This document shows positions 22,857 to 52,988 of a DNA stretch of 64,000 nt, piece by piece. This stretch comes from Corythucha ciliata. Its lineage: Eukaryota; Arthropoda; Insecta; Hemiptera; Tingidae. The position numbers and the translations under genes are program-made. The notes beneath the pieces are model-generated. The model did not search any database, was not told the origin of the DNA, and was given only the letters and a program-made list of their open reading frames with translations. Every line of letters begins with the position of its first letter. The stretch's first letter is position 1. The stretch is taken from assembly GCA_038030265.1 (NCBI GenBank), contig CM075942.1, forward strand, positions 71,242,926 to 71,306,925. Reading direction: 5' to 3'.

Positions 22857-22865
22857 TTACTTACA

Positions 22866-29019: not shown

Positions 29020-29045
29020 TATGATGAAGATACCGAGGTCTACTC

Positions 29046-29057
29046 TTTTATATAAAA
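29046..29057. promoter_or_regulatory. Palindromic TATA box shared by divergent genes
   Basis: TTTTATATAAAA is its own reverse complement and lies between the minus-strand PLA2 start (29019) and the plus-strand ATPase start (29090). It could serve both directions. Distances to the two ATGs are about 27 and 33 bases, so leaders would be very short. Confidence 0.45.
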
Positions 29058-29089
29058 CGGGGGGTGAGACGTTTACGTCGCTCATTACT

Positions 29090-34976: not shown

Positions 34977-35498
34977 AGTAGGTAAATTTGGATAACTCCA
35001 GGGTGAGGGATAATAAGCTACATGGGATAATAAGCTACCCAGCCTCCGACTCCAGGGAGAGGGATAATAAGCTACATGCGACTCCACCCAGCCTCCGGGG
35101 AGCTGGGACAGCTACACCGCCTCCGGGTGTTACCTGGGAAGCGACGCCGCCTCCGGGTGCTCCTGTACCATCCGAGGGTGGCGACTCTGGGGATGACTGG
35201 GAGAGGGATAATAAGCTACATGGGAAGCGACGCCGCCACCGGGTGCTCCTGTACCTTCCGAGGGTGGTGACTCTGGGGATGACTGGGAGAGGGATAATAA
35301 GCTACATGGGAAGCGACCACACTCTGGGGATGACTGGGTCAGAGGGATGCTACATGGGAAGCGACCCAGCCTCTGGGAGGCACGACTCCGGGTGCTCCTG
35401 TACCTTCCGAGGGCTGCACGTGGGGGAACACACGACTCTGGGGATGACTGGGTGAGGTTAAAATAAAAAACCAAAGTTGGCGACATAGTGTATTATTA
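34977..35498. repeat. Polinton 2 left terminal inverted repeat (522 bp)
   Basis: It matches the reverse complement of 50249-50770 with only a few mismatches and a small indel. Its interior is made of repeated words (GATAATAAGCTACATGGGAAG, CTCTGGGGATGACTGGG, CTCCGGGTGCTCCTGTACC) recurring with about 60-90 bp spacing. The frames through it are shadows of these repeats. Confidence 0.9.
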
Positions 35499-35539
35499 TA
35501 ACATCAGCATAAAAAAACAATAAAAATCGTCGTGGAAGT

Positions 35540-38500
35540 CTATGGTGGAGGGTCTGTATGATGTTCTGTGGGTTGCAGTTGATCATCGTCCTCCTCGTCA
35601 ATACGGCAGGAGTTGTGGGAAGACGAGGTTAAATTGGCAATGCCCACATGTCCATGCGCTAAAGTCGTGATTTTGTCCTCTAAGATGTGGCGTTTGTCGT
35701 CGTAGGGTGACAGAGACTGCTTGTTAATACTAACTGTAAACAATTCATGGCGAAAGGACCGAATAGAATTGAAGGTGGCGTACAGAACCTTATCGCCAGC
35801 AAACAGAATGTCCTTATAATCGTCAAAGATGATACGGTTCTGTACAGCATTTTTCCCAGTCCCCTTGGCCTTTTTTATATCACCGCCCCCTTCGACCCGC
35901 AAGGCGTACACCTTGGCACGGAGAGCTACAATCTCTAATAGCCTTTTTCCCATAAGCTCATCTTTAAATTTGCCCAGCACCTTTTTATTTTCTACACTAT
36001 GACAGGGGTGACTGGGTGGCAGATCTGAAAAATCGAACCATTCTCGCAGATGTTCAAAGACCTCCTCTCTCCAGTCACGTCCGTCAGTTTTAATGCTGTA
36101 AATGAAGCTGTCAGTATCGGTGTATGTCAGTCTAAGTCGCTCAGGACCAAAATGCCGCAGCATAACGTCATAATGGAACCGGTACATGTGAAGTTTGGAG
36201 AGTTCGAGAATAGTGAATCCCACATATATCGGCTTGTCGAGCACCACGCACTCACTAGCCATGTGAAATGCAACAACTTCCGAGTTGATAATGGTTCGAC
36301 GCTGGAAAGACGGCTTAGCTAGCAATCTTTCCGCCACCTTCTCCGACTTTACCACGGTTAGGTTGGTTCTTGCACGAACATTTTCTATCGTTTTGCCAAA
36401 GCTTGAGTTGTTAAGGTTCTTGTACTGGTCCTTAGCAGCTAGTGACGTCGCCAGTTTACGTTTTTCCGTGTTAAACTCAATAAACGGTGCCAGCCATTTG
36501 CGCTGCGAAAACTGGATCATGCGATGCACCTTTGTGAGAACTAGGCCGTGAGCGCATGCAAACTTTAGCGTGCGATAGTGCAGAATGTAGTGATGTTTAG
36601 GTGCCAAAGATCCGACCAGTTTGATATATTTTGACCCTGGAGGTGCCATCTTTTCGGGTAGAAGGGGGTATTCATTGAAATAATCATGAAGGTGGTCTGG
36701 AACGTCAATGTCTACTTCAGCAAAGTAACCCACCGGGTTATCATCTGGTACGGCGAGCAGGTCGACGTTGCTTGGGTCTTCAACAAACTTAAAGTCGCCG
36801 TAGGGCAGCATTTCGCAAGAACTTTTTCCATATAAATTGTTACTATCTGAAAAAGAAAGCTCCCACCCATCACCGGACTTTGCATGCCTCAAAATAGATT
36901 GAACAAAGCCGCCCCTAATTCCTGATTCTACCATTTGAAACATATCGTAGTCGGTCATGAGTTCCAGGGTGACCCCTGTTAAGCGGAGAGCACCGTCCCA
37001 GCTTATTCCCGGTAGGCTGTAGTAGTGCGCAGGGTCGAGGCGGTACTCAGACTCTAGGAACTCTCGACGGAAGTTTTCAAAAACCTCGCGAAGAAGAAGA
37101 GTGTCGAGTGTCAGATAAAAGTCAGAGTACTGGCCGAGGGTTGTAAAGTTGAATGTCGTCCAGATCTTTTGGGCATGCGCATAGTCTTCGTCCGAAATAT
37201 GTGAGTCATGTAGTTTGTTGTAAAATTCGTCCTGTGACGGAAGTGATGTTCTATCGTAGCTCGCCCAGTCAGTCACTGCATCATAGGGAAACATCTGTTT
37301 ACGGAGCAGGAGATCTAAATGTTCTTTTTGGTAAAATTGTGGAATTTTGGTGAATTGATCACGGTCCATCGCCTTCACAAGTTTGTCCAGGCTAGCGGGA
37401 AGAAAGCGAATGGAGTCTAAAAATCGGAGTTCGATGGTAGGTTGATCATGATCGCAGTCATCAGTCACCATTACACTGAACGAAATGAAATTTTCGCCGG
37501 AATGTGGGATGACTTTAACATCGCCTTCGACTGTGTTCAATTCACGTACTAGGAACTTAAAGTCGTAATGCGACCCACCGTGAAAGATAACGGGTAGAAA
37601 GGAAGGTCTCCTAGCGGCTAGATTACACTTATTGTGTGCAGCACCTCGAAACTTGCCCGTTATATGGCAGTGGTCGTAGACACGATCGTCATCTTCAAGT
37701 TCGGAGTGGCAAAGGTGGCAGTGAGTTGCATTAGCTAGTGCGGCAATGTCGTTGGCGGTCCTGGGAGGATTACGGTTTGTCTTGTAGATCCTCAGCACCT
37801 TAATGGCAATCATCTCTAAAACCTTGAGGAGCTCAGCTGCTGCATAGTTGCCCCTATACACGTACGGAAGCTGATCCATCATAAGTTCAGGATGATCCGT
37901 TTCCACGTAAACACAAAAACTGGACATGAGATGGCGCTGGTATCGCGATGTAAATGCCGAAGAAGACGATGGCTGGCACGTATCGATCGGTTCGAGTATA
38001 GATTCCGAGTCCACGTATACGACAAAGGGTAGACGAACCCCTTTGTGTATACTGGTGAACGCCAGTAAATTGTCCCCCTCTAACGGCATTACAATGCGTG
38101 TCGGGGCTCCAGTAGCATTGCAGAGGCGACGGTGCTCATCAAAGTGTTCCCCATTGAACGAGCGATATTCAAATCGTGTAAAGCAGCGTTTGCAAATTTT
38201 AAACGTATGATTTTCTCCAACCTGTACTTTAATCAGCCGTTCCAAGTTGCGAATGTTGACATAGTGTCCGACGGGATTTTCCAGAGTGGTAAGGAGGAGA
38301 AGGTCGCGGTGATCATCTTTCTCTTTGTCCACCACCTTCAACGGATAAACCATCTTATTATCGTCAACTGCAAAAACATTCACACTGATGTCGGGGTTGA
38401 CTCTCTCAAATTTGGCGATATCCTTTAACGGTGTGGGAAATGTGACCACATCAAAGTTATACTGGGCACCACTCACCGCGCCATCTAAAATTGACTGCTT

Positions 38501-39487
38501 AAAGCAGTCGGGCCCTTCATGGAGTGTTGAATCACATGCTTTTCGTTTGGCCAGAAAGTCCGGGAGGGGAATGTGGCATCCTGCTTTTAACGGATTGTGT
38601 TTGTTTATGTTGATAAGAAGACCGTCAATTTTTAGGAGACTATAGCCACTTCCATGCCCTTCGTAGTTTAACATTGCACCAATCATATTGTCAATGGCAT
38701 TGGTTAGAAGGTCGTCCAGATTAGTGTCATGATGGATAGGGACGCTGGGGCTGAGGAACGCGCGATCGACATCTTCCCGCTCACCGTCTGCTAGTGGTAA
38801 AGGTTTTGTGTAGGTCATTTCGAGAACAAAGTTGACCCACAGGCCAGGCCATTTGAGCAGGTACTCCTCGAGCTTTCTCTTAACTACGTCCCGTACTTGT
38901 GAAAAAAAGTTGTCAGTCTGAGTCGTCTTGTATGTGTTTGGTGCAAAAAAGGTTGCTAGCTTGCCCTGAAATGCAGATTCGATTTCAATCAGTCCAATGT
39001 CGGCAACAGTTTTGTTCATACGGTGCTCCTTGCGCCTGAGTGACCGTTTGTCAACTAGCGGATCGGAACCGCATGCTTTGAGCCTAAGATGCCGTCTTTT
39101 ACTATAAATGTTTTTAAATGTGCGGCCACACTGTTTGCAGTTGAGAGAACAAGTCTGGGCGCGTTGATGCGCCGCCCAATGGTACTTTGACATAAAAATG
39201 CGATTACAGGTGGTACATGTTAACGAAGTTGAAGGCTGGGGGGCTGGTTGAGTAGCAGACGCTGTCCCGGGCGTGCTACAAGTTTTGCGACGCTGATGTC
39301 TCAGCCTGTTTGTCACTGAAGTAAACTTCTGGCAACACTTGACACACTCAAGGGAGCAGGCATTGGTTCTTTTGTGACGTCGCAGAGATGTGTTACTTGA
39401 GAACAGGCGATAGCACAGTGGACATTGGTGGCGTGCGGGTCCAATAACGCCATCGGCGACAAATTTAATGACGGATGGCCGTTCCAT
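35540..39487 (-). CDS. Protein-primed family B DNA polymerase with N-terminal zinc fingers
   Basis: Start taken at ATG 39487 (1,315 residues); the frame extends to 39547 only through a GTG. It replicates the element. Four Cys/His fingers occupy about residues 20-150 (CPLCYRLF..., CVKCCQKF..., CTTCNRIF..., CKQCGRTF...). Exonuclease motifs are YVDSESIL (about 490), FHGGSHYDFKFL (about 636) and YSDFYLTLD (about 790). An endonuclease VII-like zinc motif, CHLC...DHCHITGKFRGAAHNKCN (about 590-620), sits between the first two. Polymerase motifs are DSNNLYG (about 880), KNLNNSSFGK (about 1028) and YTDTDS (about 1124). All key residues are present. It is divergent from the capsid gene cluster. Confidence 0.95.
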   Translation of the reverse strand: MERPSVIKFVADGVIGPARHQCPLCYRLFSSNTSLRRHKRTNACSLECVKCCQKFTSVTNRLRHQRRKTCSTPGTASATQPAPQPSTSLTCTTCNRIFMSKYHWAAHQRAQTCSLNCKQCGRTFKNIYSKRRHLRLKACGSDPLVDKRSLRRKEHRMNKTVADIGLIEIESAFQGKLATFFAPNTYKTTQTDNFFSQVRDVVKRKLEEYLLKWPGLWVNFVLEMTYTKPLPLADGEREDVDRAFLSPSVPIHHDTNLDDLLTNAIDNMIGAMLNYEGHGSGYSLLKIDGLLININKHNPLKAGCHIPLPDFLAKRKACDSTLHEGPDCFKQSILDGAVSGAQYNFDVVTFPTPLKDIAKFERVNPDISVNVFAVDDNKMVYPLKVVDKEKDDHRDLLLLTTLENPVGHYVNIRNLERLIKVQVGENHTFKICKRCFTRFEYRSFNGEHFDEHRRLCNATGAPTRIVMPLEGDNLLAFTSIHKGVRLPFVVYVDSESILEPIDTCQPSSSSAFTSRYQRHLMSSFCVYVETDHPELMMDQLPYVYRGNYAAAELLKVLEMIAIKVLRIYKTNRNPPRTANDIAALANATHCHLCHSELEDDDRVYDHCHITGKFRGAAHNKCNLAARRPSFLPVIFHGGSHYDFKFLVRELNTVEGDVKVIPHSGENFISFSVMVTDDCDHDQPTIELRFLDSIRFLPASLDKLVKAMDRDQFTKIPQFYQKEHLDLLLRKQMFPYDAVTDWASYDRTSLPSQDEFYNKLHDSHISDEDYAHAQKIWTTFNFTTLGQYSDFYLTLDTLLLREVFENFRREFLESEYRLDPAHYYSLPGISWDGALRLTGVTLELMTDYDMFQMVESGIRGGFVQSILRHAKSGDGWELSFSDSNNLYGKSSCEMLPYGDFKFVEDPSNVDLLAVPDDNPVGYFAEVDIDVPDHLHDYFNEYPLLPEKMAPPGSKYIKLVGSLAPKHHYILHYRTLKFACAHGLVLTKVHRMIQFSQRKWLAPFIEFNTEKRKLATSLAAKDQYKNLNNSSFGKTIENVRARTNLTVVKSEKVAERLLAKPSFQRRTIINSEVVAFHMASECVVLDKPIYVGFTILELSKLHMYRFHYDVMLRHFGPERLRLTYTDTDSFIYSIKTDGRDWREEVFEHLREWFDFSDLPPSHPCHSVENKKVLGKFKDELMGKRLLEIVALRAKVYALRVEGGGDIKKAKGTGKNAVQNRIIFDDYKDILFAGDKVLYATFNSIRSFRHELFTVSINKQSLSPYDDKRHILEDKITTLAHGHVGIANLTSSSHNSCRIDEEDDDQLQPTEHHTDPPP

Positions 39488-39729
39488 AGTGTTACTGAAA
39501 CAGTAGTATAGGCGATGAGAAACTGCGCCTGTATAAGTATCCGCCACCCCCTCCCCACTTCAACTATAGTTGGAAATAAATCAATCGGTGAAGTACAATG
39601 GCCAATCCCATGACCTCGGAACTGAGCATCCTGTTACCCACCCTCTAACCCACCCCCCACGCAATCGGTGTACAATAAAAAGCGCCGGGACGTCCCTACT
39701 GAGTTATATTCTGAGGTTTGCATTCAACC
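39488..39729. promoter_or_regulatory. Divergent promoter region between polymerase and first rightward gene
   Basis: Rightward: an ACAATAAAAAG TATA-like word at about 39669 lies about 60 bases before the ATG at 39730. Leftward: TATAC-like words near 39535 and 39515 and a TTTCAGTA initiator-like word near 39495 precede the polymerase ATG. Assignments are by eye only. Confidence 0.35.
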
Positions 39730-40014
39730 ATGGACCTTAGCAACGTGACCGAAATGGACAGCTACAAGATGTATTTAGCAGAGAGGGACAACCTTTGGCA
39801 CTACAAAACATTCATTGCAATACACGAGGCGGCCATGCGACTGGAAGAACTCGGCAAGACATTAAGTGGCACAATCGGAGAAGATGGGCACACCGACGTT
39901 TGCCGAGAACAGCAGTGCCTACCTGGCGACAAAATCGACGGTCCCTGCCGATGCTGGCTTTTTAAGAAAAACGAAAAAATATTGGTGGAGTTGCTAAGGA
40001 AAATGTACGAATAA
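39730..40014 (+). CDS. Small hypothetical protein, 94 residues
   Basis: Start at ATG 39730 (the frame extends upstream only through a TTG). First gene of the rightward cluster. The N-terminal two thirds look helical (KMYLAERDNLWHYKTFIAIHEAAMRLEEL); near the end is a four-cysteine cluster (DVCREQQCLPGDKIDGPCRCW) that could bind a metal. Not recognised. No signal peptide or membrane segment. Confidence 0.55.
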   Translation: MDLSNVTEMDSYKMYLAERDNLWHYKTFIAIHEAAMRLEELGKTLSGTIGEDGHTDVCREQQCLPGDKIDGPCRCWLFKKNEKILVELLRKMYE

Positions 40015-40103
40015 ACATAACTGACAAACCGAGTAGTTCACACTCCCTACCACCCATTTGGTCATAAGTATACACTGACGTGATAGTACGTATTTATTTT
40101 GCT

Positions 40104-40409
40104 ATGAGCCATCCACTGGAGTACTTGGCGGAAGGATTTGGGGCATTACCTTCGGGAATGCCATGCAGTGTTGCCAGTGCACTCCAGCCAAACTGTACAC
40201 CCCTATGCCAAAAGGTGTTGGACACATACAGAAATTGTACGGTAGTGTCAACATCCCCACCCTCAATAATATTGCACGTCATCATTTTATTTATTATGAT
40301 CATCAACGGCTGTGGACTATATATGATGTGGAGGTGCCGCAAGGTGAGCCATAATGTTGGTGCAAGGGAGAGGAATCATCGATTCGATTGTAGACAGACT
40401 CCCTGTTGA
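40104..40409 (+). CDS. Small single-pass membrane protein
   Basis: 101 residues from ATG 40104. The N-terminal half carries several cysteines (MPCSVASALQPNCTPLCQ) and would be outside or lumenal. A clear membrane segment follows (IILHVIILFIMIINGCGLYMM), then a basic tail (WRCRKVSH...RERNHRFDCRQ). The last 56 bases overlap the PLA2 gene in another frame. Function unknown; a viral membrane or viroporin-like protein is possible but unsupported beyond the topology. Confidence 0.55.
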   Translation: MSHPLEYLAEGFGALPSGMPCSVASALQPNCTPLCQKVLDTYRNCTVVSTSPPSIILHVIILFIMIINGCGLYMMWRCRKVSHNVGARERNHRFDCRQTPC

Positions 40410-41130
40410 AGTACATTTACCAGGAGGATACCAGTGGTGTGGGCCGGGGACAAAGGTTGAAAAGCGGTTAGCACGGGGCGACAAGGGAATCAACAAGCTA
40501 GACGAGGCGTGCAAAGAGCACGATTTATTTTACCACAACGAGAAGGATTCGGTTAAGCGCGCAGACGCCGACGCTATATTAGCAAAGGCTGCTAGAGACC
40601 GTACAAGGGCGAAAGACGCATCGTGGAAGGAAAAGCTGGCTGCTTGGTCAGTGTACGGCGCTATGAAATTAAAAAGTGGACGTGGGACGGGGGGCGGTCG
40701 AAAAAAGCAAAGCCCGTCCACCATATTTCGAAAAGGGCTGCTAGCTGCAAAAAAGGTATTGAAAAACCTACCACAATCGACCAGCCTTCAGGAAAGAATG
40801 AAAATTGCGAGGCGTGCGGCGAAAAAGGCACTGCCCCCAGGGTACAGAAAAATCACACCCCCACGTGTTATCCCACTCCCTCAGCAACAAACGGGAGGAT
40901 TTCTCCCACTGTTGATGGCTGCCATCCCAGCACTTTCGGCATTGGGGAGCCTTGCTGGAGGAGCTGCAAGCATTGTTCGCCTCTACAATGAGGCAAAGAC
41001 CGCCGCGGCAAAGAGCAACACCTCAGGCGACTCCGTTTCAGTTGGACAAGGCCTGTTTCTCCGTCCATACAGACGTGGACTTGGGCTATACATCACCGGC
41101 GGCGGAAAGCGACGTCGTTCAAAAAACTAA
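40354..41130 (+). CDS. PLA2-domain minor capsid protein
   Basis: 258 residues from ATG 40354. It carries the PLA2 core at about residues 20-65: YQWCGPGT calcium loop, ARGDKGINKLDEACKEHDLFYH with the catalytic His-Asp. A Lys/Arg-rich centre, a proline stretch, a hydrophobic GGFLPLLMAAIPALSALGSL segment and a C-terminal GLFLRPYRRGLGLY motif follow. The layout matches the Polinton 1 protein. The domain is like that of parvovirus capsid proteins; the hydrophobic and C-terminal parts recall adenovirus core/pVI-type proteins (inference). The last codons (TCA AAA AAC TAA) contain the frameshift heptamer that leads into the protease. Confidence 0.85.
   Translation: MLVQGRGIIDSIVDRLPVEVHLPGGYQWCGPGTKVEKRLARGDKGINKLDEACKEHDLFYHNEKDSVKRADADAILAKAARDRTRAKDASWKEKLAAWSVYGAMKLKSGRGTGGGRKKQSPSTIFRKGLLAAKKVLKNLPQSTSLQERMKIARRAAKKALPPGYRKITPPRVIPLPQQQTGGFLPLLMAAIPALSALGSLAGGAASIVRLYNEAKTAAAKSNTSGDSVSVGQGLFLRPYRRGLGLYITGGGKRRRSKN
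41121..41127 (+). promoter_or_regulatory. Candidate -1 ribosomal frameshift heptamer A_AAA_AAC (Polinton 2)
   Basis: The heptamer is in the correct phase and followed at once by the PLA2 stop codon TAA. A -1 shift yields AAA AAA CTA ATC, the protease frame. No ATG exists in the protease frame between about 41040 and the catalytic histidine, so ordinary initiation cannot explain protease expression. A perfect 12-bp palindrome AATGTCGACATT lies about 30 bases downstream; whether it forms a stimulatory stem was not computed. Confidence 0.75.
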
Positions 41131-41522
41131 TCACGTATCTGCCGCTTAAAGCTCTCACTAATGTCGACATTACGAGGATTATTTCACGGCTGGAGATTCC
41201 ACATTTTCGGGGTGTGTTTAATGTAGACATTTTACCTAGAAAGCAATGGGCGGCAGAGTGTGCAGTTGTAAATCTGGACAGTATTGATGGCCCCGGGAGT
41301 CATTGGGTCGCCTACTGGACATCACCGCACCATCCAATCATCATCTACTTTGACAGCTTTGGTGACCTACGTCCCCCTCCACAACTTATAAGGTATTGGG
41401 GAGACAGCGGGCGGCGTGTATTCCACAATCGTGAACAGATTCAGCCGTTCAACACTGAAATTTGTGGCCATCTCTGTATACTATTTCTAGCACTGATGTC
41501 GCGAACAGGCATTCAGTCATGA
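41127..41522 (+). CDS. Adenain-like cysteine protease, made as -1 frameshift extension
   Basis: The coding extent is given from the shift site. Residues KLITYLPLKALTNVDITRII and IPHFRGVF align with Polinton 1's KLLVTLPDRAL...IPHFRGVF, all upstream of the first GTG. Catalytic elements are GSHWVAYW (His), IIYFDSFGDLRPP (acid) and TEICGHLCILFL (Cys). In adenovirus the homologous protease matures capsid proteins and is stimulated by a peptide of a minor capsid protein; here the enzyme would be tethered to one. The stop overlaps the next start as ATGA (41519-41522). Confidence 0.85.
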   Translation, partial: LITYLPLKALTNVDITRIISRLEIPHFRGVFNVDILPRKQWAAECAVVNLDSIDGPGSHWVAYWTSPHHPIIIYFDSFGDLRPPPQLIRYWGDSGRRVFHNREQIQPFNTEICGHLCILFLALMSRTGIQS

Positions 41523-42559
41523 TCATCTCTTTGGTAGGCAAGAGTTCAAGCCTAACATCAACGTTCTTCCCGCCAGTCCCTCTTGACATGGACAGCGGAG
41601 GACAGTGGGTTATGGGTCTGCTATCTTTTGAAACGTACCATAGTTTGCCAAATGTGAGATCGGGCAAGAATAATTTGCTATACTACAGTGATCCTCCTAT
41701 ACCTGTGATTGTTGGAGATGACAAGGCGGACATTGCAAAAGAGGTGCACAATCACGGGGAGATTAAAAAGCATTTACAAATAACATTTGACGATGCGAAA
41801 AAGAGATGCATCGTGGCCGTTAAAAACAAGGACATTTACAATTTCTACCCAGACTCCATTTTAATTAAACTCGGTTTCAATTTTGGACGTGTACTGTTCG
41901 CCGGAGGCACGTACGTGGCGGACAGGCCACCGCATTCACTGACAGAGATCGGGAGTGGTGTTGTTGACGCAAGGGTGAGAGGTGTACCAGCGACCGGGCC
42001 GGAAGGTGATCTTCCCACATCAATGCACCTGTATTTGGGTTCGAGAATCGCCGTGGAAGAGGGAGCTTATGAGTTTGACCAGCTAGTCAAGGCCCTGCAG
42101 GACAAGCTGACTCTTCAAGGCGTCACACTAAACCTGACAGTTAATCGCAACACATTAAAGTGCCAGCTGGAGTGTTCGCGAGACATATACTTTCCGGCAA
42201 ACGGACTCGGGCGTCTGTTTGGGTTTCATGATGAAGTTGTCCTACTTTCGGGGACAAAGCACGTTGCTACGCATGTTGTAGATATACTTAAATCAGGCGC
42301 CATAGGGATCGAATGTAGTCTTATAGACAGCTCCTACCGAAACGGTCAAAACTCTCACATCATCTACGAATTTTACCCCGACGTTGAACCAGGATTCAAG
42401 ATTGTTGAGACACCTAAAAACATAATATTTTTACCCGTGCTTGCGAGACATCAATTAACGTCAATTACCGTTAGAGTGGTAGACGAGACCGGAGAAGAAT
42501 TGGATTTTCGCGGCGAACAAATTGCAGTGAGATTATACTTGAAACTCGAACATGCTTGA
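41519..42559 (+). CDS. Penton-like minor capsid protein
   Basis: 346 residues from ATG 41519. The N-terminal third (LVGKSSSLTSTFFPPVPLDM, LLSFETYHSLPN) matches the truncated Polinton 1 protein. The C-terminus (IYEFYPDVEPGFKIVETPKN, ITVRVVDETGEELDFRGEQI, RLYLKLEH) is a pattern I recall from a capsid protein conserved across Polintons and assigned as penton, a single jelly-roll vertex protein. Mostly beta-strand-like sequence with no membrane segment fits this. It lies between protease and major capsid genes. The function is inferred from family and context. Confidence 0.65.
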   Translation: MIISLVGKSSSLTSTFFPPVPLDMDSGGQWVMGLLSFETYHSLPNVRSGKNNLLYYSDPPIPVIVGDDKADIAKEVHNHGEIKKHLQITFDDAKKRCIVAVKNKDIYNFYPDSILIKLGFNFGRVLFAGGTYVADRPPHSLTEIGSGVVDARVRGVPATGPEGDLPTSMHLYLGSRIAVEEGAYEFDQLVKALQDKLTLQGVTLNLTVNRNTLKCQLECSRDIYFPANGLGRLFGFHDEVVLLSGTKHVATHVVDILKSGAIGIECSLIDSSYRNGQNSHIIYEFYPDVEPGFKIVETPKNIIFLPVLARHQLTSITVRVVDETGEELDFRGEQIAVRLYLKLEHA

Positions 42560-42785
42560 TTTGAGCCGTGGAGCCCAAAGGGGTTACAGCCTCTACCACC
42601 ACCATAGTGGGGAAGAAGAAGGTAAAATGCTTGACGAAGCGGGTGTTGAGATCATTAGACGCAGGACAGCCCACGAGTTAACACCTGAAAACCGGGCTTT
42701 TCTTCGCAGTTTAGGCTTTCACGTAACAGTTCCACCGCTAGCAGCGATCAATCAAGCGAACAATGGCGGATATTTTAGACGTTAA
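42552..42785 (+). CDS. Small hypothetical protein overlapping both neighbours
   Basis: 77 residues. Its ATG overlaps the penton stop and its end overlaps the capsid ATG by 23 bases, so the three are tightly packed. The sequence has a HHH stretch and then TAHELTPENRAFLRSLGF. The latter looks conserved in kind with short Polinton proteins that I cannot name. Possibly a capsid-associated peptide. Confidence 0.5.
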   Translation: MLDLSRGAQRGYSLYHHHSGEEEGKMLDEAGVEIIRRRTAHELTPENRAFLRSLGFHVTVPPLAAINQANNGGYFRR

Positions 42786-44019
42786 AGCCCCGGCCGTTTT
42801 TGACCACAGCATCACATCAAATGCTATCCACGGCCATCAGCCATACATCAGTTCAACTTTCAAAACTGGCGATGAAATCAGAATCCCCATTCTGAGTACA
42901 TCCATTATGCCGCTGATCTCGGACAGTTACCTTATGATTGAAGGGAAAGTAAACGATCTGGACACTAATTTTACCATAGCAACAAATGGACTTGCATTTG
43001 CATTTGACGAACTTTGGTTGGAGCTCAACGGCATTGTGATTGACTATGTTAAGCTGCCAGGATACACGAGCACAATGAAAGGCTACTGTAGCTACACCAA
43101 AGACCAGCAGGCACATTTGGAGGCTGGCGGGTGGACACTACCATTTGATAACACAGGAAATCCGATAGTGCAGGAGGGCGAATTCAATGCGTGCATCCCG
43201 CTGAAAACATTAATGGGATTTGCCGAGGACTACAGAAGGGTTTTGATTAACGCCCGTCTGGAATTGGTTCTGATTCGTGCCAACAGCGATAAGGCAGTGT
43301 TTAAACGACTATTGACGGATGCAACCGTCACCGAAGCCAGCGCGACTGCAAAAGAGCCAAGCCTAACAATAACTAAAATCTCCTGGAAGGTGCCGTACAT
43401 CGAGGTCAATGACTCTCTCAAACTACAACTTCTAAATACAACAGAAAAGGATACACCGATTCAAGTCCCGTTCCGTTCATGGAGTCTGCATAGCTACCCT
43501 GCCCTGCCAAAAACCCGACAACACTCGTGGACGATCAAAACGGCCACCCAGTTGGAAAAGCCCCGGTTTGTAATACTGGGATTTCAGACGGGCCGAAGCA
43601 AAGCTTTGAAAGTGCTCGCCAAACAGGCTGCAGTATTTGACAAGTGCCAACTGTCTTCATTAAAACTCCATATTGGGGGAGTGACAGTACCGTACGAAAA
43701 TTTCCAGCTGGACGTTAATAAGAATCGGGTGAGTGAGGCGTATCACTTTTACTCATGCTTCAAATCAAGTTATTATCGCAACAGTGATACAATCGGTGAA
43801 TCGATGCTATCTCTTGAGGAGTTTTCGGCGTATGCGCCCTTGGCGGTTATCGACTGTAGCAGACAGGTAGACGGTGCATTCTCATCGCCCGTGGACATAA
43901 GACTGGAATTTGAGAGTAGTGACAACTTTCCCGATGACACCACACTCTACTGTTTAATTTTACACGATCGCCTTTTCGTCTATTACCCACTGAGCGGGAT
44001 TGTCAGAAAACAAGTTTAA
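42763..44019 (+). CDS. Major capsid protein (double jelly-roll type)
   Basis: 418 residues from ATG 42763. It starts VFDHSITSNAIHGHQPYISSTF, GDEIRIPI, a pattern I recall from the Polinton capsid protein related to C. elegans F54H12.2. The sequence is rich in predicted strands without membrane segments, has a WSLHSYPALPKTRQHSW stretch in the middle, and YYRNSDTIGESMLSLEEF late. It is the largest gene of the rightward cluster after the polymerase and sits where Polintons carry the hexon-like protein. It is expected to form the pseudo-hexameric capsomers. No homologue remains in Polinton 1. Confidence 0.7.
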   Translation: MADILDVKAPAVFDHSITSNAIHGHQPYISSTFKTGDEIRIPILSTSIMPLISDSYLMIEGKVNDLDTNFTIATNGLAFAFDELWLELNGIVIDYVKLPGYTSTMKGYCSYTKDQQAHLEAGGWTLPFDNTGNPIVQEGEFNACIPLKTLMGFAEDYRRVLINARLELVLIRANSDKAVFKRLLTDATVTEASATAKEPSLTITKISWKVPYIEVNDSLKLQLLNTTEKDTPIQVPFRSWSLHSYPALPKTRQHSWTIKTATQLEKPRFVILGFQTGRSKALKVLAKQAAVFDKCQLSSLKLHIGGVTVPYENFQLDVNKNRVSEAYHFYSCFKSSYYRNSDTIGESMLSLEEFSAYAPLAVIDCSRQVDGAFSSPVDIRLEFESSDNFPDDTTLYCLILHDRLFVYYPLSGIVRKQV

Positions 44020-44050
44020 ACCATCCCCCACTACCGGGGGTGGTGTATAT

Positions 44051-44650
44051 ATGGAAGCAAGTGGCTTCAGGATCACACAGTCCATCATGAGATCATCGTC
44101 CGCTGCAATTGTTGACTTTGTGGCCTTTCAAAGTGATCGTTGCGGGCGCTGCAACCCCAAGACATCGGGATTCATTGTGAAGGAGTTGGCAATTGTACTT
44201 TTGGGCAACACCCGCGCTGTAGGGCATTGGATTTTCAAATCACCGGATCCAAAACACTATTCGGACACATCATCGAGCCCTCAAAACGAATGGCTGACTC
44301 GTGAATTTCACAACTTGACATGGGGAGAAGGATTTGTGGCCTACAAGGAGCTCGATCTTATCCTACGGGAATATCTACAGTCTGTGGATGTCGTTTATGT
44401 CAAGGGGCTCGAGAAGGTACGGTTTTTGTCAGGACGGCTTGCCGAATGCCCTAATGCGCCTGAAGTTATCGATTTGGCAACACTCAATTGCCCATCACTG
44501 CGTGACATGGCGGCATGGAGTCAATTCCACGCAGCGCCTTGCCTTCGCCACGCCGGATGTGACATCAAGTACCGATGCGCCTCGAGTCAGGCGATCAAAT
44601 TAGCACAATGGTTTGAATTGTACCAAGTTTTATTCTGTAATAACCAATAA
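44051..44650 (+). CDS. Conserved Polinton protein of unknown function
   Basis: 199 residues from ATG 44051; the frame extends upstream only through a TTG. Features: AAIVDFVAFQ near the start, FIVKELAIVLL, a HNLTWGEGFVAYKELDLIL segment, DVVYVKGLEKVRFL, then a PEVIDLATLNCPSLRDM and CLRHAGC...RCASSQAIKLAQWF end. The alternating DF and VYVKG strands and the late Cys/His residues could suggest an exonuclease-like RNase H fold with a zinc site, but I do not claim it. Polinton 1 keeps only its first codons (32173). A TATATAT word lies just before the ATG. Confidence 0.55.
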   Translation: MEASGFRITQSIMRSSSAAIVDFVAFQSDRCGRCNPKTSGFIVKELAIVLLGNTRAVGHWIFKSPDPKHYSDTSSSPQNEWLTREFHNLTWGEGFVAYKELDLILREYLQSVDVVYVKGLEKVRFLSGRLAECPNAPEVIDLATLNCPSLRDMAAWSQFHAAPCLRHAGCDIKYRCASSQAIKLAQWFELYQVLFCNNQ

Positions 44651-44749
44651 AGTTTTTGACGAAAGTTGAACGTGTATCAACCCCCCCCCCCCTTTACCAT
44701 TGATCAGATTGTACATAAACCCTAGGTGGGTAGGTACGGCGCATTAGTC

Positions 44750-45463
44750 ATGCGCTTCATTCCACAGAAGGTGCGACTTGACGTGGGGCCGCACGCATCA
44801 GTTGAGGAGGGGGGCAAGGAAGGTGGAAAACATCGTCACAGCGCTCTATTCGGCCCTGGCCCCCTGTTAATCCTCGGAACGGGGCCCTCGGGATGTGGCA
44901 AAACGAGCGCCATAGTCGCATTGTTATTGGACGAAAACGGACTACGATATGATAACGTTTATGTCTTTTGCAAAACATTGAATCAGCCCAAATATCAGTT
45001 TCTTGCGCGTGTGTTTGAGGGCCTCAATGGTTTGGGGTACTACCCATCGGACGACATTGAGAATATTCCATCACCAAGCGAGCTGAAACCTAATTCGATC
45101 GCGGTTTTTGATGATATGATATTAGCACCGCAAAACAAGGTACGTGAATATTTCACGATGGGAAGGCATTCAGGAATCGATGTAATATACCTGGCACAGT
45201 CCTATACTCACGTTCAAAAACATCTTATTCGCGAAAATGCAAATTTCCTCATTGTGTTTCCCCAGGATCTTTTAAATTTAAAACATATCCACACGGATCA
45301 CATAGGGCCCGACATGCAGTGGTCGGATTTTCAAAACATCGCCGTGGAATGCTGGAAACGCGGCCGGTTTTTTGTTATCGACAAACAAATGCCGGTAACT
45401 AATGTCGAAGGAGGCAGCGGTGGACGGTACCGCAGTGGCTTTCACGTCTATTTAGTACCTTGA
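44750..45463 (+). CDS. Packaging ATPase (FtsK/HerA, A32-like)
   Basis: 237 residues from ATG 44750. Walker A is GTGPSGCGKTSA (about 44-55), Walker B is SIAVFDDMIL, and FTMGRHSGIDVIYLAQSYTH follows as the sensor/arginine-finger region. The C-terminus is GGRYRSGFHVYL, matching Polinton 1's KGRYRKGFDKF. Drives DNA packaging in the family. A near-identical but frameshifted copy lies at 51454-52168. A poly-C tract at about 44683-44693 precedes the gene and marks the point where similarity with that copy begins. Confidence 0.92.
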   Translation: MRFIPQKVRLDVGPHASVEEGGKEGGKHRHSALFGPGPLLILGTGPSGCGKTSAIVALLLDENGLRYDNVYVFCKTLNQPKYQFLARVFEGLNGLGYYPSDDIENIPSPSELKPNSIAVFDDMILAPQNKVREYFTMGRHSGIDVIYLAQSYTHVQKHLIRENANFLIVFPQDLLNLKHIHTDHIGPDMQWSDFQNIAVECWKRGRFFVIDKQMPVTNVEGGSGGRYRSGFHVYLVP

Positions 45464-45485
45464 AAGGGTGAGAAACACGACAGTC

Positions 45486-46625
45486 ATGGATACTAACGCG
45501 TCAAAGAAGCGTCTGACCCGACGCATAATTCGAGCACGAGAAAGTATTCGTCGCAAACATCGATTAATGAAGGGTATACGTGAAGAGGCGGGAGAAGCGT
45601 CACGAAAATCGCTCGAGCCAATAAGCAAACCTTTGCAAATGATTAGCAGTTTAATTGAGGACAGTCGCCGTGAGCCTGACGACAGCGGTGTGGAAAAACA
45701 GTCTAGCACGGCGGCAGGCAAGCCTAAGTTTTCCACCAAACGCAAGCCTCCCCGCATCAGCTTTTCTTCCAAACGACGTTTGATTCAACCACCTCTCCCA
45801 TCACCACTGCCCGATGCTGAAATCTGGGAAGCTCTACCAGCTGCTACGTCAACTCCCTTTAAGAGAAAACCACCGCCAGCTGCTTTTTATTCAAGACCAT
45901 ACAAGATGGGGCAAGCGTCAGCTCTGCCCACCAAAGTGACAATTGATGATGAAGGGCCTTTGGAAGACACCGCCGCCGCCGCCGCAACCACCGGCTCAGA
46001 GGATGAATCGATAAACGAAAAAAGTTTCGTCGATCAGCTTCGTGATGAGTCTTTTTCCGCACCGGAAGTGGTGGACCAAGAGTTAAGGCAGCTCTACCCG
46101 GCACTGCGGCCTTATATTCACGCTTTGATGATTGGGGGTGCTGCAACGCAGGAGCTGGATAAGATCTACGGTCCGAGGGTGAGTCCTGAGGGCGGAATCT
46201 TTTTGGGGAGCATGCCCCTCAAATTTAGCAGGTATGGTATCCACCTTCCTGGGGCAGATTATGAAGCAACTGAAGGTCTCGCAAACCTTCTTTTTCAGCA
46301 ACGTCCGGAAAACTATACTCCATCAGACTTGGTTGTATACAGGGACATGATTGAGAGGAGTAATGCTTCTAGAAGGGGCTATAGCAAAACCCGTGCTTAT
46401 AACTCTTCTGGATTCAAGTATCGAGCGTTGCTAACGCGCAATATGAAAACTGGAAAGGGTATTGTTGACGCTAAAGCTCCAAGGGTTGACCTGTATAAAT
46501 CAGTAAACGAGTTGTGCGAGAGGTTAAAGTTACTTCTGGCGTCGACGAGGGCCGGAAACGCCTCACACACGGGTGAGATTCACAATATAATTACAGAGCT
46601 GTTAAACGAGGGGGTAATTGCTTAG
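45486..46625 (+). CDS. Capsid-associated protein, DUF8207-like
   Basis: 379 residues from ATG 45486. The N-terminus is highly basic (KKRLTRRIIRARESIRRKHR), which could bind DNA. A low-complexity middle with short alanine run (CCG repeats at 45970-45985) and acidic stretch follows. The C-terminal half is the conserved part (LRQLYPALRPYIHALMIGG, GPRVSPEGGIFLGSMPLKF, LANLLFQQRPENYTPSDLV, GFKYRALLTRNMKTGKG). The stop is directly followed by the integrase ATG (TAG ATG). Similar to the Polinton 1 protein at 29821-30830. Role unknown; a core or scaffold protein is inference. Confidence 0.6.
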   Translation: MDTNASKKRLTRRIIRARESIRRKHRLMKGIREEAGEASRKSLEPISKPLQMISSLIEDSRREPDDSGVEKQSSTAAGKPKFSTKRKPPRISFSSKRRLIQPPLPSPLPDAEIWEALPAATSTPFKRKPPPAAFYSRPYKMGQASALPTKVTIDDEGPLEDTAAAAATTGSEDESINEKSFVDQLRDESFSAPEVVDQELRQLYPALRPYIHALMIGGAATQELDKIYGPRVSPEGGIFLGSMPLKFSRYGIHLPGADYEATEGLANLLFQQRPENYTPSDLVVYRDMIERSNASRRGYSKTRAYNSSGFKYRALLTRNMKTGKGIVDAKAPRVDLYKSVNELCERLKLLLASTRAGNASHTGEIHNIITELLNEGVIA

Positions 46626-47561
46626 ATGGGTGTAAAAAAACGCCTTGTTGATGAGCTCTTTTCGCCCGCACGAATTAAATACCCTAGAAGCCGCGTAATT
46701 ATAAAGGATGTCTTCACGGATTTGGTGGAAGCAGATTTACTGATAATGACTTCGCACGCTGAAAGGGGGTTTCGCTACATTCTGACAGCCATTGACGCCG
46801 GTTCAAAATATGGTTTTGCCGTGCCCCTCAAGACCAAGACAGGGCGTGAAGTGACAAACGCCTTTGAAAAAATCCTAAAGGATCATCCATTTTTAAGGCC
46901 GCGACTTTTGAACACTGACCGCGGCCGGGAATTCCTCAACACACAGTTTCAGGATATGCTTAAACGATATAAAATAAAGCATTATTGGACATTTAGCGGT
47001 GTAAAGGCATCTATGGTTGAACGTTTTAACCGCACACTTCGACATCTCATTTGGAAATCAATGGCAGTCAGGGGCTCACGAACCTGGGTCAAAGAATTGC
47101 CGAATATTCTCAATACGTACAATACCAACGTTCACGGTGCACATGGCATGAAACCGGCGGAAATTAAAAAGACTGATGCAAAAGTTATCTTGAAGAGGCT
47201 TTTTCCGCATCGGCCAACATCGCGTCAAAAGCCAGGTTACCAGGTCAATGACCTTGTACGTATTTCAAAGACGCGTTCCATATTTTCAAAGGCGTCAAAC
47301 GGGAACTGGACGAATGAGGTTTTCCGGGTTTTCAAAGCCAATAACAGTGCGGACCCACCTTTTTATCATATTAAAGACATGAACGGCCAGGAAATACAGG
47401 GACGTTTCTACGCTGAGGAACTAAAACGCACTAAATTTCCCAACGAGTTTCTAGTGGAGAGGGTACTGAAACGTAACAAAAACCGATACCTCGTACGATT
47501 TCTTGGTATGGACTCCAGCCACGACTCATGGATATCTAAACAAAACCTATTTAGCACATAG
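46626..47561 (+). CDS. Retrovirus-like DDE integrase with C-terminal chromodomain
   Basis: 311 residues, ATG immediately after the preceding stop. Inserts the element into the host genome, producing the 6-bp duplication seen at the ends. Catalytic residues: LVEADLLI (Asp), LNTDRGREF (Asp), SMVERFNRTL (Glu). A KTRSIFSKASNGNWTNEVFRV segment suggests the SH3-like fold, and FLVERVLKRNKNRYLVRFLGMDSSHDSW is a chromodomain that may bias target choice toward marked chromatin. That fits insertion in a satellite array. Complete and open. Confidence 0.92.
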   Translation: MGVKKRLVDELFSPARIKYPRSRVIIKDVFTDLVEADLLIMTSHAERGFRYILTAIDAGSKYGFAVPLKTKTGREVTNAFEKILKDHPFLRPRLLNTDRGREFLNTQFQDMLKRYKIKHYWTFSGVKASMVERFNRTLRHLIWKSMAVRGSRTWVKELPNILNTYNTNVHGAHGMKPAEIKKTDAKVILKRLFPHRPTSRQKPGYQVNDLVRISKTRSIFSKASNGNWTNEVFRVFKANNSADPPFYHIKDMNGQEIQGRFYAEELKRTKFPNEFLVERVLKRNKNRYLVRFLGMDSSHDSWISKQNLFST

Positions 47562-47632
47562 TTACCACCTCCACAATCCAGTGGTAGTGGGAGGTACATA
47601 AAACGACGTGAATCATCACACAATGTCACACA

Positions 47633-48136
47633 ATGCTTGAAGATCAGTTAAGTTTTGAGCGTAAACGCCTGCAGACATTCAAAGACTGGCCTGTGACCTG
47701 GATTTTCCCATTGTCTTTGACGTCATCAGGCTTCTTCTACTGCGGTTTTCGGGATTTCGTGCAGTGTTACTTTTGTGGAATTGTACTGGGCGAGTGGAAA
47801 AAGGACGACATTCCATCTGTGGAACACTACAATCACAGTAAAGGCCGGTGCCCGTTCGTCAAAAACCCGAATACCACCTCAAATGTGCCCCTCACGCTAG
47901 CAGAGAACAAAAGGGCTATAATTTCTCTCTCAGAACGGCTGTCGCTGCAACAGGAAATCCTTAGTACTATAGCAGAGCTCAAAACGTTATTGACGCGACC
48001 ACAACCAACTTCATGGAGCCTCATCAGGTGGTTAAAAAACCTTCTCGCAAAATTTCTCTCGCCTGGCTGCTCGATTCGGAACCTCTTCTCCACATCTACG
48101 CACCCTGGGACAAAAGCAGCAACGGGGTCATCCTGA
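47633..48136 (+). CDS. BIR-domain (IAP-like) protein
   Basis: 167 residues from ATG 47633. Residues about 7-78 form one BIR domain: RLQTFKDWP at its start, GFFYCG, then QCYFCG...WKKDDIPSVEHYNHSKGRCPF with the Cys-Cys-His-Cys zinc ligands in the usual order. No RING domain follows; the remaining 90 residues contain a helical leucine-rich stretch. BIR proteins in large insect DNA viruses restrain apoptosis, so the same is likely here, but BIR domains also serve other roles. Its 3' part overlaps the next gene by 124 bases. Confidence 0.85.
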   Translation: MLEDQLSFERKRLQTFKDWPVTWIFPLSLTSSGFFYCGFRDFVQCYFCGIVLGEWKKDDIPSVEHYNHSKGRCPFVKNPNTTSNVPLTLAENKRAIISLSERLSLQQEILSTIAELKTLLTRPQPTSWSLIRWLKNLLAKFLSPGCSIRNLFSTSTHPGTKAATGSS

Positions 48137-48441
48137 ATCGCAAACAGTGGGCGTTGCTTGAAACAAACTTTGATGCGATTCTATCCCAACTTTGCAAAGG
48201 GACTCCGGAGTTGCTGAAAATTGACTCATCACTAAGTTTTGACACGGGCAAGTGGAAGCCAACGAGACGTAGGGTGATCCTAAACAATTCTCTCAGCCTA
48301 TCCAAGACCGATGTGATGTTTCTACACCGTGCCTCAAACCTCATACGATCGGGGTTTTGCCTGCTCTACCCCAGCATTGATGACTTAAGGCGTGACATCG
48401 CATTTAATAATACTCATGCAAGTTATAAACCATCCATGTAA
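48013..48441 (+). CDS. Small protein, possibly PC4-like single-strand DNA binder
   Basis: 142 residues from ATG 48013, overlapping the BIR gene in another frame. The stretch RKISLAWLLDSEPLLHIYAPWDKSSNGVILNRKQWALL resembles, in order and spacing, the PC4/p15 fold (KGIxLxxEQWxxL end). That fold binds single-stranded DNA. The C-terminal half is not recognised. An AATAAA-like word (AAATAAAC, about 48455) follows the stop. Assignment is tentative; simple hypothetical protein otherwise. Confidence 0.45.
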   Translation: MEPHQVVKKPSRKISLAWLLDSEPLLHIYAPWDKSSNGVILNRKQWALLETNFDAILSQLCKGTPELLKIDSSLSFDTGKWKPTRRRVILNNSLSLSKTDVMFLHRASNLIRSGFCLLYPSIDDLRRDIAFNNTHASYKPSM

Positions 48442-48702
48442 ACATTATTGCTTAAAATAAACAAATTTTCACAAGACAAGTATATGTTTTTTACTCACAT
48501 GTCGAAGTTCCTTTGATTTGAGTACTCTGCAGAGAATGCGATTTTCGGCGGTCGGAATCTGGCTATTTATTGCACACTCGTGGCAGTGGGGATTGAAATT
48601 TCTGCAAATAGGTCTAATTACGTAATCCAACACAAGAGTGTGCGTTGACCTTGCTGTTTTTTTTGTTTTTTTTTGTTTTTTTTTTTTTTTGACGACTTTT
48701 CG

Positions 48703-48739
48703 TATAAATAAGGGCACTGATGCATTGAACAAGTCAGTT
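48703..48739 (+). promoter_or_regulatory. TATA box plus TCAGTT initiator before the 48788 gene
   Basis: TATAAATA at 48703-48710 and TCAGTT at 48734-48739 are separated by about 31 bases, the canonical arthropod core promoter spacing. Transcription would begin near 48736, giving a leader of about 50 bases. Confidence 0.65.
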
Positions 48740-48787
48740 ATTCGGCGAATCTCTTGGTAAATACTGGTTATTATTTATCAAACGATA

Positions 48788-49090
48788 ATGTTTCACAAAT
48801 TGGAAAGTGCGGCTACCCTGGTCCCATCGGTCAGTCTTGAAACATTGCAAGCTGGAGTACCATATATAATTAAAAAATTAGAGAAGCGCGTGCACCAAAC
48901 TTATGGGGAAAGTCTGTGTTGCATGATTTCTAATAATTTAATGGATACCTGGGTATATCTCCCTAAAAGAATGAACAACGCCTTATCTGATGAAGAAATA
49001 CAAAAGTACAACTCGGGAACGCCAGACGTTCAGCTGATCTACAGAGGAAAAATGAAGAAAGCACATATCGTCGAATTTTTGAAACTGTAA
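48788..49090 (+). CDS. Small conserved Polinton accessory protein
   Basis: 100 residues from ATG 48788, with its own TATA-Inr promoter. The pattern WVYLPKRMNNALSDEEIQKYNSG...VQLIYRGKMKKAHIVEF is one I recall from many short proteins in animal genomes associated with mobile elements; no function is known to me. No membrane segment. It is the last recognisable gene before the right inverted repeat. Confidence 0.55.
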   Translation: MFHKLESAATLVPSVSLETLQAGVPYIIKKLEKRVHQTYGESLCCMISNNLMDTWVYLPKRMNNALSDEEIQKYNSGTPDVQLIYRGKMKKAHIVEFLKL

Positions 49091-50248
49091 CGCAGGACGG
49101 ACTGAACGACGCCGGGAATAACTGCGGTCAGTCGTGTTTTTACGTTATAGGTGAGGATTGAATTAAAACATAATAATACTTTTAATGTGTGTATTTCTTA
49201 AATGGTGGACAGTGTGCAGGGCGATGTGTGCGTACCTACATAAGGGAATTTAAGTTTAAGATTTCCATATATCACAAAACGCACATTACTCACTTTTACA
49301 ACATATTATTCGTCCTCCATTGTTGGAGGTGCGGGTGGCGGCGGGGGTGGTGGTGGCGGCGGTTGTGCCGGTGGGTTGGAAATCTAGAACGTACCTCTAC
49401 ATAAGCATTTGGGATATTACTTTTAAGAAATGGTTACTTACGAATATTTTGATTCTTTTCACGTTTATCGTGTTCACACAGACGCAAGGTGGTTCTCCGT
49501 ACATGATTGGTGACTCCCCAAATTTCAACCTTTATATACGAATTTACAGTGGGATTGTTAGCCCACTTCTCTTCAATAAAGAATAATATAATAAATAACC
49601 CTTATTGAATTATTTTTTGACAGGATTTATTGCCTATTAAAGTGCATTCTCGTTTGCATAAAACCGAAATCGTAACATAAAGGTCAAATTTTTGATTGTG
49701 TCAAAGGAACTACACGCTTTAAGAAATTGAATTTTTTTTCCCACCGGTATTGAGAGATGATTTAATTGTAAGAAATTGTTTCGCACCAGTATTGATAGAT
49801 GCAAGATAGGCTTGTTTTTTATTTTTGTATCAATTAAACTACACGCTTTAAAAGAATTTGCATATTGTTTTTTCACTTTGTAAAGCAATCCAGGAAAGGT
49901 CACATCCTTTTTTTTATCACGCTTTTGTTTTTTCCCAACCTTCAACTTGCTACTATTTGTGCAGGGAAGGTCGCATCATTTTTTTTAAGATTCTTTTTTT
50001 TCCCCTCCTACAACTTACTAATTTTCGTGTCCATAGATGGTGTAATCGAAATATGTGTTACCCTACAAAGACGGGCAATCGCACGCAGTGATCCCATCTT
50101 CACGCTCACCGGGGAATTTCAACTGTGCGGCCAAAATATGTGTTACCCTACAAAGACGGGCAATCGCACGCCGTGATCACATCTTCACGCTCACCGTCGG
50201 CGAAGTTTTACACTGTTTTATTGTCACGTGAGCGCAAGGTCTTTTTAT
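49091..50248. other. Non-coding right end of Polinton 2 with direct repeats
   Basis: No gene seen. Direct repeats are present: ACTACACGCTTTA words near 49708 and 49843; a roughly 75-bp repeat with CAGGAAAGGTC/CAGGGAAGGTC words near 49890 and 49965; and an 84-bp tandem pair around ATATGTGTTACCCTACAAAG at about 50050 and 50134. They sit just inside the inverted repeat and could be replication or regulatory sites. Confidence 0.5.
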
Positions 50249-50770
50249 TAATAATACACTATGTCGCCAACTTTGGTTTTTTATTTTAACCTCACCCAGT
50301 CATCCCCAAAGTCGTGTGTTCCCCCACGTGCAGCCCTCGGAAGGTACAGGAGCACCCGGAGTCGTGCCTCCCAGAGGCTGGGTCGCTTCCCATGTAGCAT
50401 CCCTGGAGACCCAGTCATCCCCAGAGTGTGGTCGCTTCCCATGTAGCTTATTATCCCTCTCCCAGTCATCCCCAGAGTCACCACCCTCGGAAGGTACAGG
50501 AGCACCCGGAGGCGGCGTCGCTTCCCATGTAGCTTATTATCCCTCTCCCAGTCATCCCCAGAGTCGCCACCCTCGGATGGTACAGGAGCACCCGGAGGCG
50601 GCGTCGCTTCCCAGGTAACACCTGGAGGCGGTGTAGCTGTCCCAGCTCCCCGGAGGCTGGGTGGAGTCGCATGTAGCTTATTATCCCTCTCCCTGGAGTC
50701 GGAGGCTGGGTAGCTTATTATCCCATGTAGCTTATTATCCCTCACCCTGGAGTTATCCAAATTTACCTAC
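50249..50770. repeat. Polinton 2 right terminal inverted repeat (522 bp)
   Basis: Reverse complement of 34977-35498 with few differences. The frames through it are shadows of its internal tandem words. It ends exactly at the TATGAC duplication. Confidence 0.9.
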
Positions 50771-51000
50771 TATGACTACTGATTTTTGTGCCAAAGCGCG
50801 TTCCGCTAAACTAATTTCTTCGAGAGTTATCGTGCTAACAAGAAAACGGCCATAATATTATATATATATATATATATGAATTCCTGAGACCACTGAATTC
50901 GTGTTCTAGAGGTTCTGAAACGTGAAAAAAACATGACATGACCCATGTTTGCCACCATCACGACGAGACCAATAGTGCATTTTTCAGAATGAAATGCACT
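50771..51000. mobile_element. Helentron-like element copy 1, right part
   Basis: It continues the 296-bp unit cut by Polinton 2 (TATGACTACTGATTTTTGTG...), then a TA microsatellite (about 50859-50876), a GAATTC...GAATTC palindromic stretch and a terminal hairpin: AGTGCATTT, loop, AAATGCACT at 50974-51000. The same order ends copy 2 at 63195. Confidence 0.55.
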
Positions 51001-52168: not shown

Positions 52169-52190
52169 AAGGGTGAGAAACACGACAGTC

Positions 52191-52988
<798 letters not shown>

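Follow-up and report, generated by a model that had tools for sequence, protein, structure and literature searches.

In the gag-pro region of beta- and deltaretroviruses, according to the available parts of PMC3835772 and PMC5009743, a slippery heptamer at the end of a structural open reading frame (ORF) drives a -1 shift into a protease frame, and the protease is made as a minority fusion with the structural protein. The heptamer A_AAA_AAC is listed, in the available part of PMC5009743, among the shiftiest for mammalian ribosomes, in agreement with the high slippage efficiency that an earlier sequence-only reading of the locus described here had ascribed to it. In adintoviruses, a preprint (PMC11071296) suggests, on the basis of KnotInFrame, slippery sites near the end of Penton ORFs and a similar relation between Hexon and Adenain ('Hexain'); its frameshift section names no PLA2-protease junction and contains no conservation analysis. 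The Sf Maverick 1 and 2 elements (PMC5803895) carry a CAP protein of 258 aa with a PLA2 domain and a PRO protein of 133 aa, which are given as separate ORFs, and in the available text of that paper the word 'frameshift' occurs twice, both times in the section on errantiviruses. We found no description of a PLA2-protease frameshift in the accessible parts of the open-licence literature on Polintons, adintoviruses and related DNA viruses, which does not by itself establish its absence from print; the sequence-only reading had likewise known of none for Polintons, and the closest precedent is the Penton/Hexon-Adenain suggestion for adintoviruses.

The window analysed here, a stretch of 64,000 nucleotides of the Corythucha ciliata genome, contains a Polinton/Maverick element that appears intact (Table 1). 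Its inverted arms (34977-35498 and 50249-50771) are 99% complementary and form terminal inverted repeats of about 520 nt, and a 6-bp target duplication, TATGAC, stands on both flanks; both features are those by which Polinton/Maverick elements are recognised. The element encodes a B-type DNA polymerase (PF03175), an rve integrase, a DJR capsid protein, an A32-like ATPase and a PLA2-like protein, the last being a putative capsid component on account of its parvovirus-type domain. Two profile scores were just under the cut-off, that of the ATPase (22.6 vs 22.8 bits) and that of the protease (20.6 vs 21.3 bits), so the identity of the protease was settled by a fold match instead: its modelled structure matches the adenain fold, as in adenain-like C5 peptidases, and H59, D76, Q106 and C113 are invariant in the 10 sequences aligned, with His, Asp and Cys presumably in their catalytic roles. 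The integrase is followed by an ORF with a BIR (inhibitor of apoptosis) domain (PF00653, E 5.2e-17), overlapped by a 158-aa ORF in the -1 frame with its own ATG, the pair lying at 47633-48136 and 47965-48441 (plus strand); an in-phase A_AAA_AAC at 48034-48040 lies within this overlap, possibly by chance. Elsewhere in the window we noted a second, truncated copy of the ATPase (98%) and of the next ORF (94%) just past the right terminus (51454-52988, plus strand), pieces related to a Polinton DNA polymerase at the left end (2-544, minus strand), and reverse-transcriptase ORFs on both strands within 19557-23958 (20754-22706 minus, 22789-23958 plus), perhaps inverted LINE copies.

Table 1. Coordinates of the two Polinton junctions and associated features in the window.
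Feature	Position	Strand	Remarks
Polinton/Maverick element containing the junction	34977..50771		about 15.8 kb; end uncertain by one base
PLA2-like protein ORF, 0 frame, 258 aa	40354..41130	+	PF08398, E 7.9e-11; 476 homologues
Slippery heptamer A_AAA_AAC, in phase	41121..41127	+	its final six bases supply the two sense codons that close the PLA2 ORF
0-frame stop codon TAA touching the heptamer	41128..41130	+	
Adenain-like cysteine protease, -1 frame	41127..41522	+	frame open from 40992
Weak predicted stem-loop	41138..41194	+	10 nt after the heptamer; -10.2 kcal/mol; not significant
Second Polinton: PLA2-like ORF, 0 frame	28228..29292	-	PF08398, E 1.6e-15; 43% identity to the PLA2 of the first element
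Second Polinton: slippery heptamer A_AAA_AAC, then TAT TAG	28234..28240	-	read in the 0 frame as part of TCA AAA AAC
Second Polinton: adenain-like protease, -1 frame	27845..28234	-	42% identity to the protease of the first element
Second Polinton: predicted stem-loop from 9 nt past the heptamer	28174..28224	-	common to a 79% related family

The sequence-only reading had placed an in-phase A_AAA_AAC directly against the PLA2 stop codon, and this was confirmed: the PLA2 ORF ends CGT TCA AAA AAC TAA, in which the heptamer has the in-phase X_XXY_YYZ form of a canonical programmed -1 ribosomal frameshift signal and is the only canonical in-phase heptamer of that ORF. The protease frame is exactly -1, as had been proposed, and is open up to 41522. 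The early protease residues, described in the same reading as conserved with the other Polinton of the window, do align with it, right from the residue that follows the heptamer (42% identity over 122 columns, E 2e-31). The further claim that no ATG precedes the catalytic His was strictly true of the window element, in which the single Met of the protease frame is the eighth residue from its end, downstream of the conserved His and Cys, but it did not extend to the second element, where an in-frame AUG lies 31 nt before the end of the heptamer. As a bare 7-mer, A_AAA_AAC is common (70 in the window vs 45 expected); the 11-mer TCAAAAAACTA is found twice in the window, exactly at the two Polinton junctions, where shuffles predict 0.12. 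Adenain of adenoviruses and adintoviruses (peptidase C5) has its own start codon, whereas here the first residue of the domain would lie about 8 codons after the frameshift site, with no conserved start codon: the modelled fold places adenain residue 1 at position 7 or 8 of the -1 frame reading, and the adenain-fold helix 12-22 precedes the AUGs that are present in some relatives. In the second Polinton, an ATPase ORF (28922-29785, plus strand) overlaps the 5' extension of the opposite-strand PLA2 ORF, and PLA2 translation probably begins at a point well within the latter.

To place these two junctions, we searched the host assembly (400.9 Mb, 57 contigs), and the DNA-level evidence on junctions comes from this one genome only. 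The PLA2 protein query gave at least 31 matches, read as at least 24 places (a second PLA2 query added none), and the protease query at least 24 matches, read as at least 22 places; each of the 22 protease places found was directly downstream of a PLA2 place. We grouped the 22 junctions by identity into seven families, F1-F7, leaving out L004-L006, L014, L028-L031, L036 and L037-L060 as second views by coordinates; L021 and L032, where PLA2 ends before the junction, stand outside the 22. The in-phase TCA_AAA_AAC, lying within TCAAAAAACTA and with the protease starting at the last base of the heptamer, was present at 17 of the 22 junctions and in six of the seven families, at PLA2 identities down to about 40%: three junctions in F1 (including the window element), four in F2, two in F4 (including the second window element), two in F5, five in F6 (including L027) and one in F7. 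Some of these 17 are damaged, the protease being broken in L009 and L023 and PLA2 broken or split in L013, L027 and L033, and L034 retains the PLA2 C-terminal part only; a degraded copy, L035, has A_AAA_AAG instead of A_AAA_AAC. In an alignment of the seven family representatives, TCAAAAAACTA was identical in six with diverged flanks, and the A run in the six heptamer families was exactly six A between C bases. A heptamer scan of the overlap covered 20 junctions, all but L016 and L017 of F3, and at each of the 17 heptamer junctions no canonical heptamer other than A_AAA_AAC was present where the two open frames overlap. In F2, this overlap amounts to just 18 nt ahead of the last base of the heptamer, so that the change of frame is confined to that stretch.

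The expectation that relatives with the same overlap would share the heptamer was thus borne out except in F3 (L015-L018; 4 of the 22 junctions, near-identical, PLA2 frame open). In this family the overlap is kept, there is no A_AAA_AAC, and the PLA2 ORF ends TAC GGA AAA TCT TAA. The 276-nt overlap of F3 has a single canonical in-phase heptamer, U_UUA_AAA, 48 nt before the stop (L015, L018), which chance could yield. Either the site has moved in F3 or another route is used, and the F3 copies (L015, about 2270-2340) offer a natural contrast case.

The synonymous sites of the junction, which the sequence-only reading had singled out as a check, proved to be conserved: TCA, AAA and AAC were chosen in 6 of 6 heptamer families, with phase and next base kept. 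The naive chance of this codon choice, from each family's own codon usage, is 3.2e-7, to be taken as a guide and not as a probability, since the families are interrelated and the counts in part small; when F1/F2 and F4/F5 count once each (product over F1, F5, F6 and F7), it is about 2e-5. Taken together, the codon choice, phase and next base point to a constraint on the nucleotides themselves. The overlapping frame also bears the mark of coding constraint between F1 and F2, where -1 frame residues 1-24 gave dN 0.43 and dS 1.69 and the other two frames showed no such contrast. Between F4 and F5 the same residues gave pS 0.29 and pN 0.20, a contrast that is weak because the synonymous sites are themselves conserved: none of the other overlapping windows across PLA2 and protease, 38 in all, has so low a pS. 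The first protease window of F1/F2 (pS 0.67) is the lowest of 13 protease windows but falls within the PLA2 range of 0.43-0.98. Copies within families differed too little over residues 1-24 to show selection, with 0 synonymous and 0-3 nonsynonymous changes in five pairs (3 in the F4 pair).

Wider relatives were examined at the protein level, in the C-terminal tails of the best 120 of the 476 PLA2 homologues, i.e. those closest to the query. In 101 of these 120 the C-terminus is the one that the heptamer would encode. Lys-Asn (KN) occurs within the last 12 residues in 101 of the 120 tails (52 directly before the stop, 36 one residue away, 10 two residues away and 3 further), at a rate per position of 0.080, compared with 0.0067 elsewhere; with weighting by 60%-identity clusters, KN is present in 11.8 of 14 clusters of this set. 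The residue preceding KN in these best-matching tails (S 62, P 11, T 10, Q 8, K 7, A 3) has an NNA codon in every one of the 101 tails, vs 80% of 191 KN elsewhere. The phase NNA_AAA_AAY is found in 101 of the 120, and either of the remaining phases in 9, of which five overlap. In 49 tails of this set KN is followed by a further residue, which in 42 of them is C, Y, F, L, W or S, vs 19% elsewhere; these residues have little in common except codons able to begin with T, so it is the next base that is kept and not the amino acid. AAC followed by T gives the -1 frame codon CUN for Leu, the residue found at that place in 6 of 6 heptamer families. The 19 of these best 120 tails without KN include KKKT or KKI tails and some without a lysine run.

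Immediately ahead of the heptamer, F1 and F2 have basic tails, GKRRRSKN and GKKRRSKN (window 41100-41127; L010), and F1 has an ITGG stretch. We take these to resemble the adenovirus cofactor peptide and adenain cleavage sites; neither is general among the best 120 of the 476 PLA2 homologues.

Searches of predicted proteins returned 476 PLA2 relatives vs 9 protease relatives. The only single-frame PLA2-protease fusion, P0093, reads into the protease frame after an apparent upstream indel and was set aside; with its protease part as query, it found itself alone at E <= 0.001 among 8 candidates. Among the viral contigs scanned, two had a stretch distantly similar to PLA2 (38 and 43% identity; E 1e-5 to 2e-5), with no protease junction in the parts read. 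A distant Polinton-like contig, L003 (WPAE01000141.1), has a protease with its own ATG after the capsid gene and was not counted as a junction; these capsid and protease genes (431-2168; the capsid label follows from position and length) are filed under an Ignavibacteria MAG and are probably misbinned. Phage protein records gave no match, nor did plasmid protein records searched with the capsid protein.

Downstream of the window heptamer, where the sequence-only reading had suggested folding for a stem or pseudoknot, no significant structure was found: the predicted stem-loop was equalled or beaten by 6 of 40 shuffles and at 243 of 871 native positions, and a home-made scan for H-type pseudoknots found none in either window element (shuffles averaged -2.6 kcal/mol for the window element and -2.2 kcal/mol for the second). 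An alignment fold of six families gave no common structure, and the z-scores of single folds were -0.57, 0.15, -1.64, -2.13, -1.93 and -0.16. The stem-loop of the second Polinton (-13.1 kcal/mol) was equalled or beaten by 3 of 40 shuffles and at 19 of 391 native positions. F4 and F5 share an interrupted 14-pair stem, 9 nt after the heptamer, with one compensatory pair; 94.6% of its cells are paired, a value reached by 11 of 500 shuffles, and its covariation score was reached by 91 of 500. This suggests a possible stimulatory stem, supported in the F4/F5 lineage only and not in the window element.

The arrangement at the junction is very probably explained best by programmed -1 ribosomal frameshifting that would yield a minority PLA2-protease fusion, and the mechanism put forward in the sequence-only reading is, from comparison of sequences, well supported. 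Most ribosomes would complete the PLA2-like protein and terminate at the codon touching A_AAA_AAC. In a minority, the tRNAs on AAA and AAC would slip back by one base to AAA AAA, and the slipped ribosomes would read on in the -1 frame (CUA...), adding the adenain-like protease as a C-terminal extension. Such a fusion could set a low dose of protease and carry it into assembling particles together with the PLA2 protein, by analogy with Gag-Pro, and the protease may then free itself from the fusion. The element would in this way meter its protease through fusion to a minor capsid protein.

Several other routes to a protease product have to be weighed against this one. Ribosomes could terminate at the end of the PLA2 ORF and begin again on or close to its stop codon, giving a free protease. 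F6, with UAAUG at the stop and L-M-I-G-L-P... in the -1 frame, suits such a scheme, so reinitiation could contribute in that family, and the homologues P0093, P0121 and P0124 have a Met near the protease start. The first 12 post-junction codons of the -1 frame, however, contain no AUG in F1, F2, F3, F4, F5 and F7, and 49 of the 101 KN tails in the best 120 of 476 homologues have codons between KN and the stop, so that it is the heptamer and not the stop-start overlap that is conserved. A long upstream ORF, here about 250 codons of PLA2, also disfavours reinitiation, and we regard this as a very improbable general explanation. Initiation of a separate protease at a non-AUG codon (e.g. CUG, ACG or AUC) or by leaky scanning could draw on the ATC, ACG and CTG present in the -1 frame at 41130-41141 and on the upstream in-frame AUG of the second element. 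These codons are not common to the families, though, five AUGs (start included) precede the heptamer in the window PLA2 ORF, and the conservation of TCA AAA AAC would be left unexplained; this route seems to us still less probable than reinitiation.

The fusion protein itself would be identical if the polymerase slipped on the A6 run at the junction and a minority of mRNAs gained one extra A that joined the frames. Polymerase slippage is indifferent to codon phase, yet one phase dominates among the tails of the best 120 homologues (101 vs 9 in the other two, with five overlapping), and the run is held at exactly six A between C bases; six is short for slippage by RNA polymerase II, and we give this explanation the same slight credence as non-AUG or leaky initiation. 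Lys-Asn might, finally, be merely a conserved C-terminal peptide, with the protease frame open by accident or decay. KN is indeed conserved at the protein level, and within families, where changes are few, the -1 frame has no excess of synonymous change. Against this stand the codon choice, the conserved next base and the coding conservation of the -1 frame (the dN and dS of F1 vs F2 over residues 1-24), as well as the position of every one of the 22 protease places found directly downstream of a PLA2 place, and we consider it the least probable of these alternatives.

Programmed frameshifting, which we prefer, is itself a known mechanism; the lineage would be an unexpected one for it, and the pairing of partners would be new. 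The retroviral gag-pro case differs in that the present element is a DNA element with a B-type DNA polymerase and an integrase, its upstream protein is PLA2-like, its protease is of the adenain-like cysteine type and not aspartic, and no general pseudoknot was found. The adintovirus proposal (PMC11071296, in the part available) shares with ours the -1 frameshift, the virus group and, in one case, adenain; its partner is Hexon or Penton and its basis KnotInFrame prediction, whereas our proposal has PLA2 as partner and a comparative basis. Like the present element, the Sf Mavericks, as far as the available text of PMC5803895 describes them, combine a PLA2-domain protein and a protease in insect elements.

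It is quite likely, judging from the comparisons above, that PLA2-encoding animal Polintons have an ancient, conserved -1 frameshift cassette, in which A_AAA_AAC touches or nearly touches the stop codon and the protease is made only as a minor extension of PLA2, a Gag-Pro strategy of the retroviral type fixed in a lineage of eukaryotic dsDNA viruses, where one family or more would have exchanged the site for another. If true, comparison would here have revealed programmed frameshifting that is conserved within a dsDNA virus or transposon lineage of eukaryotes, and annotations that give PLA2 and protease as independent genes would need correcting. Frameshifting could also explain why the protease has no conserved start codon and why its relatives are so few next to those of PLA2, to which short contigs and the length of the protease may contribute. 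The finding bears, moreover, on whether Polintons make virions, since tuning a protease by fusing it to a membrane-active protein would be sensible mainly if particles assemble.
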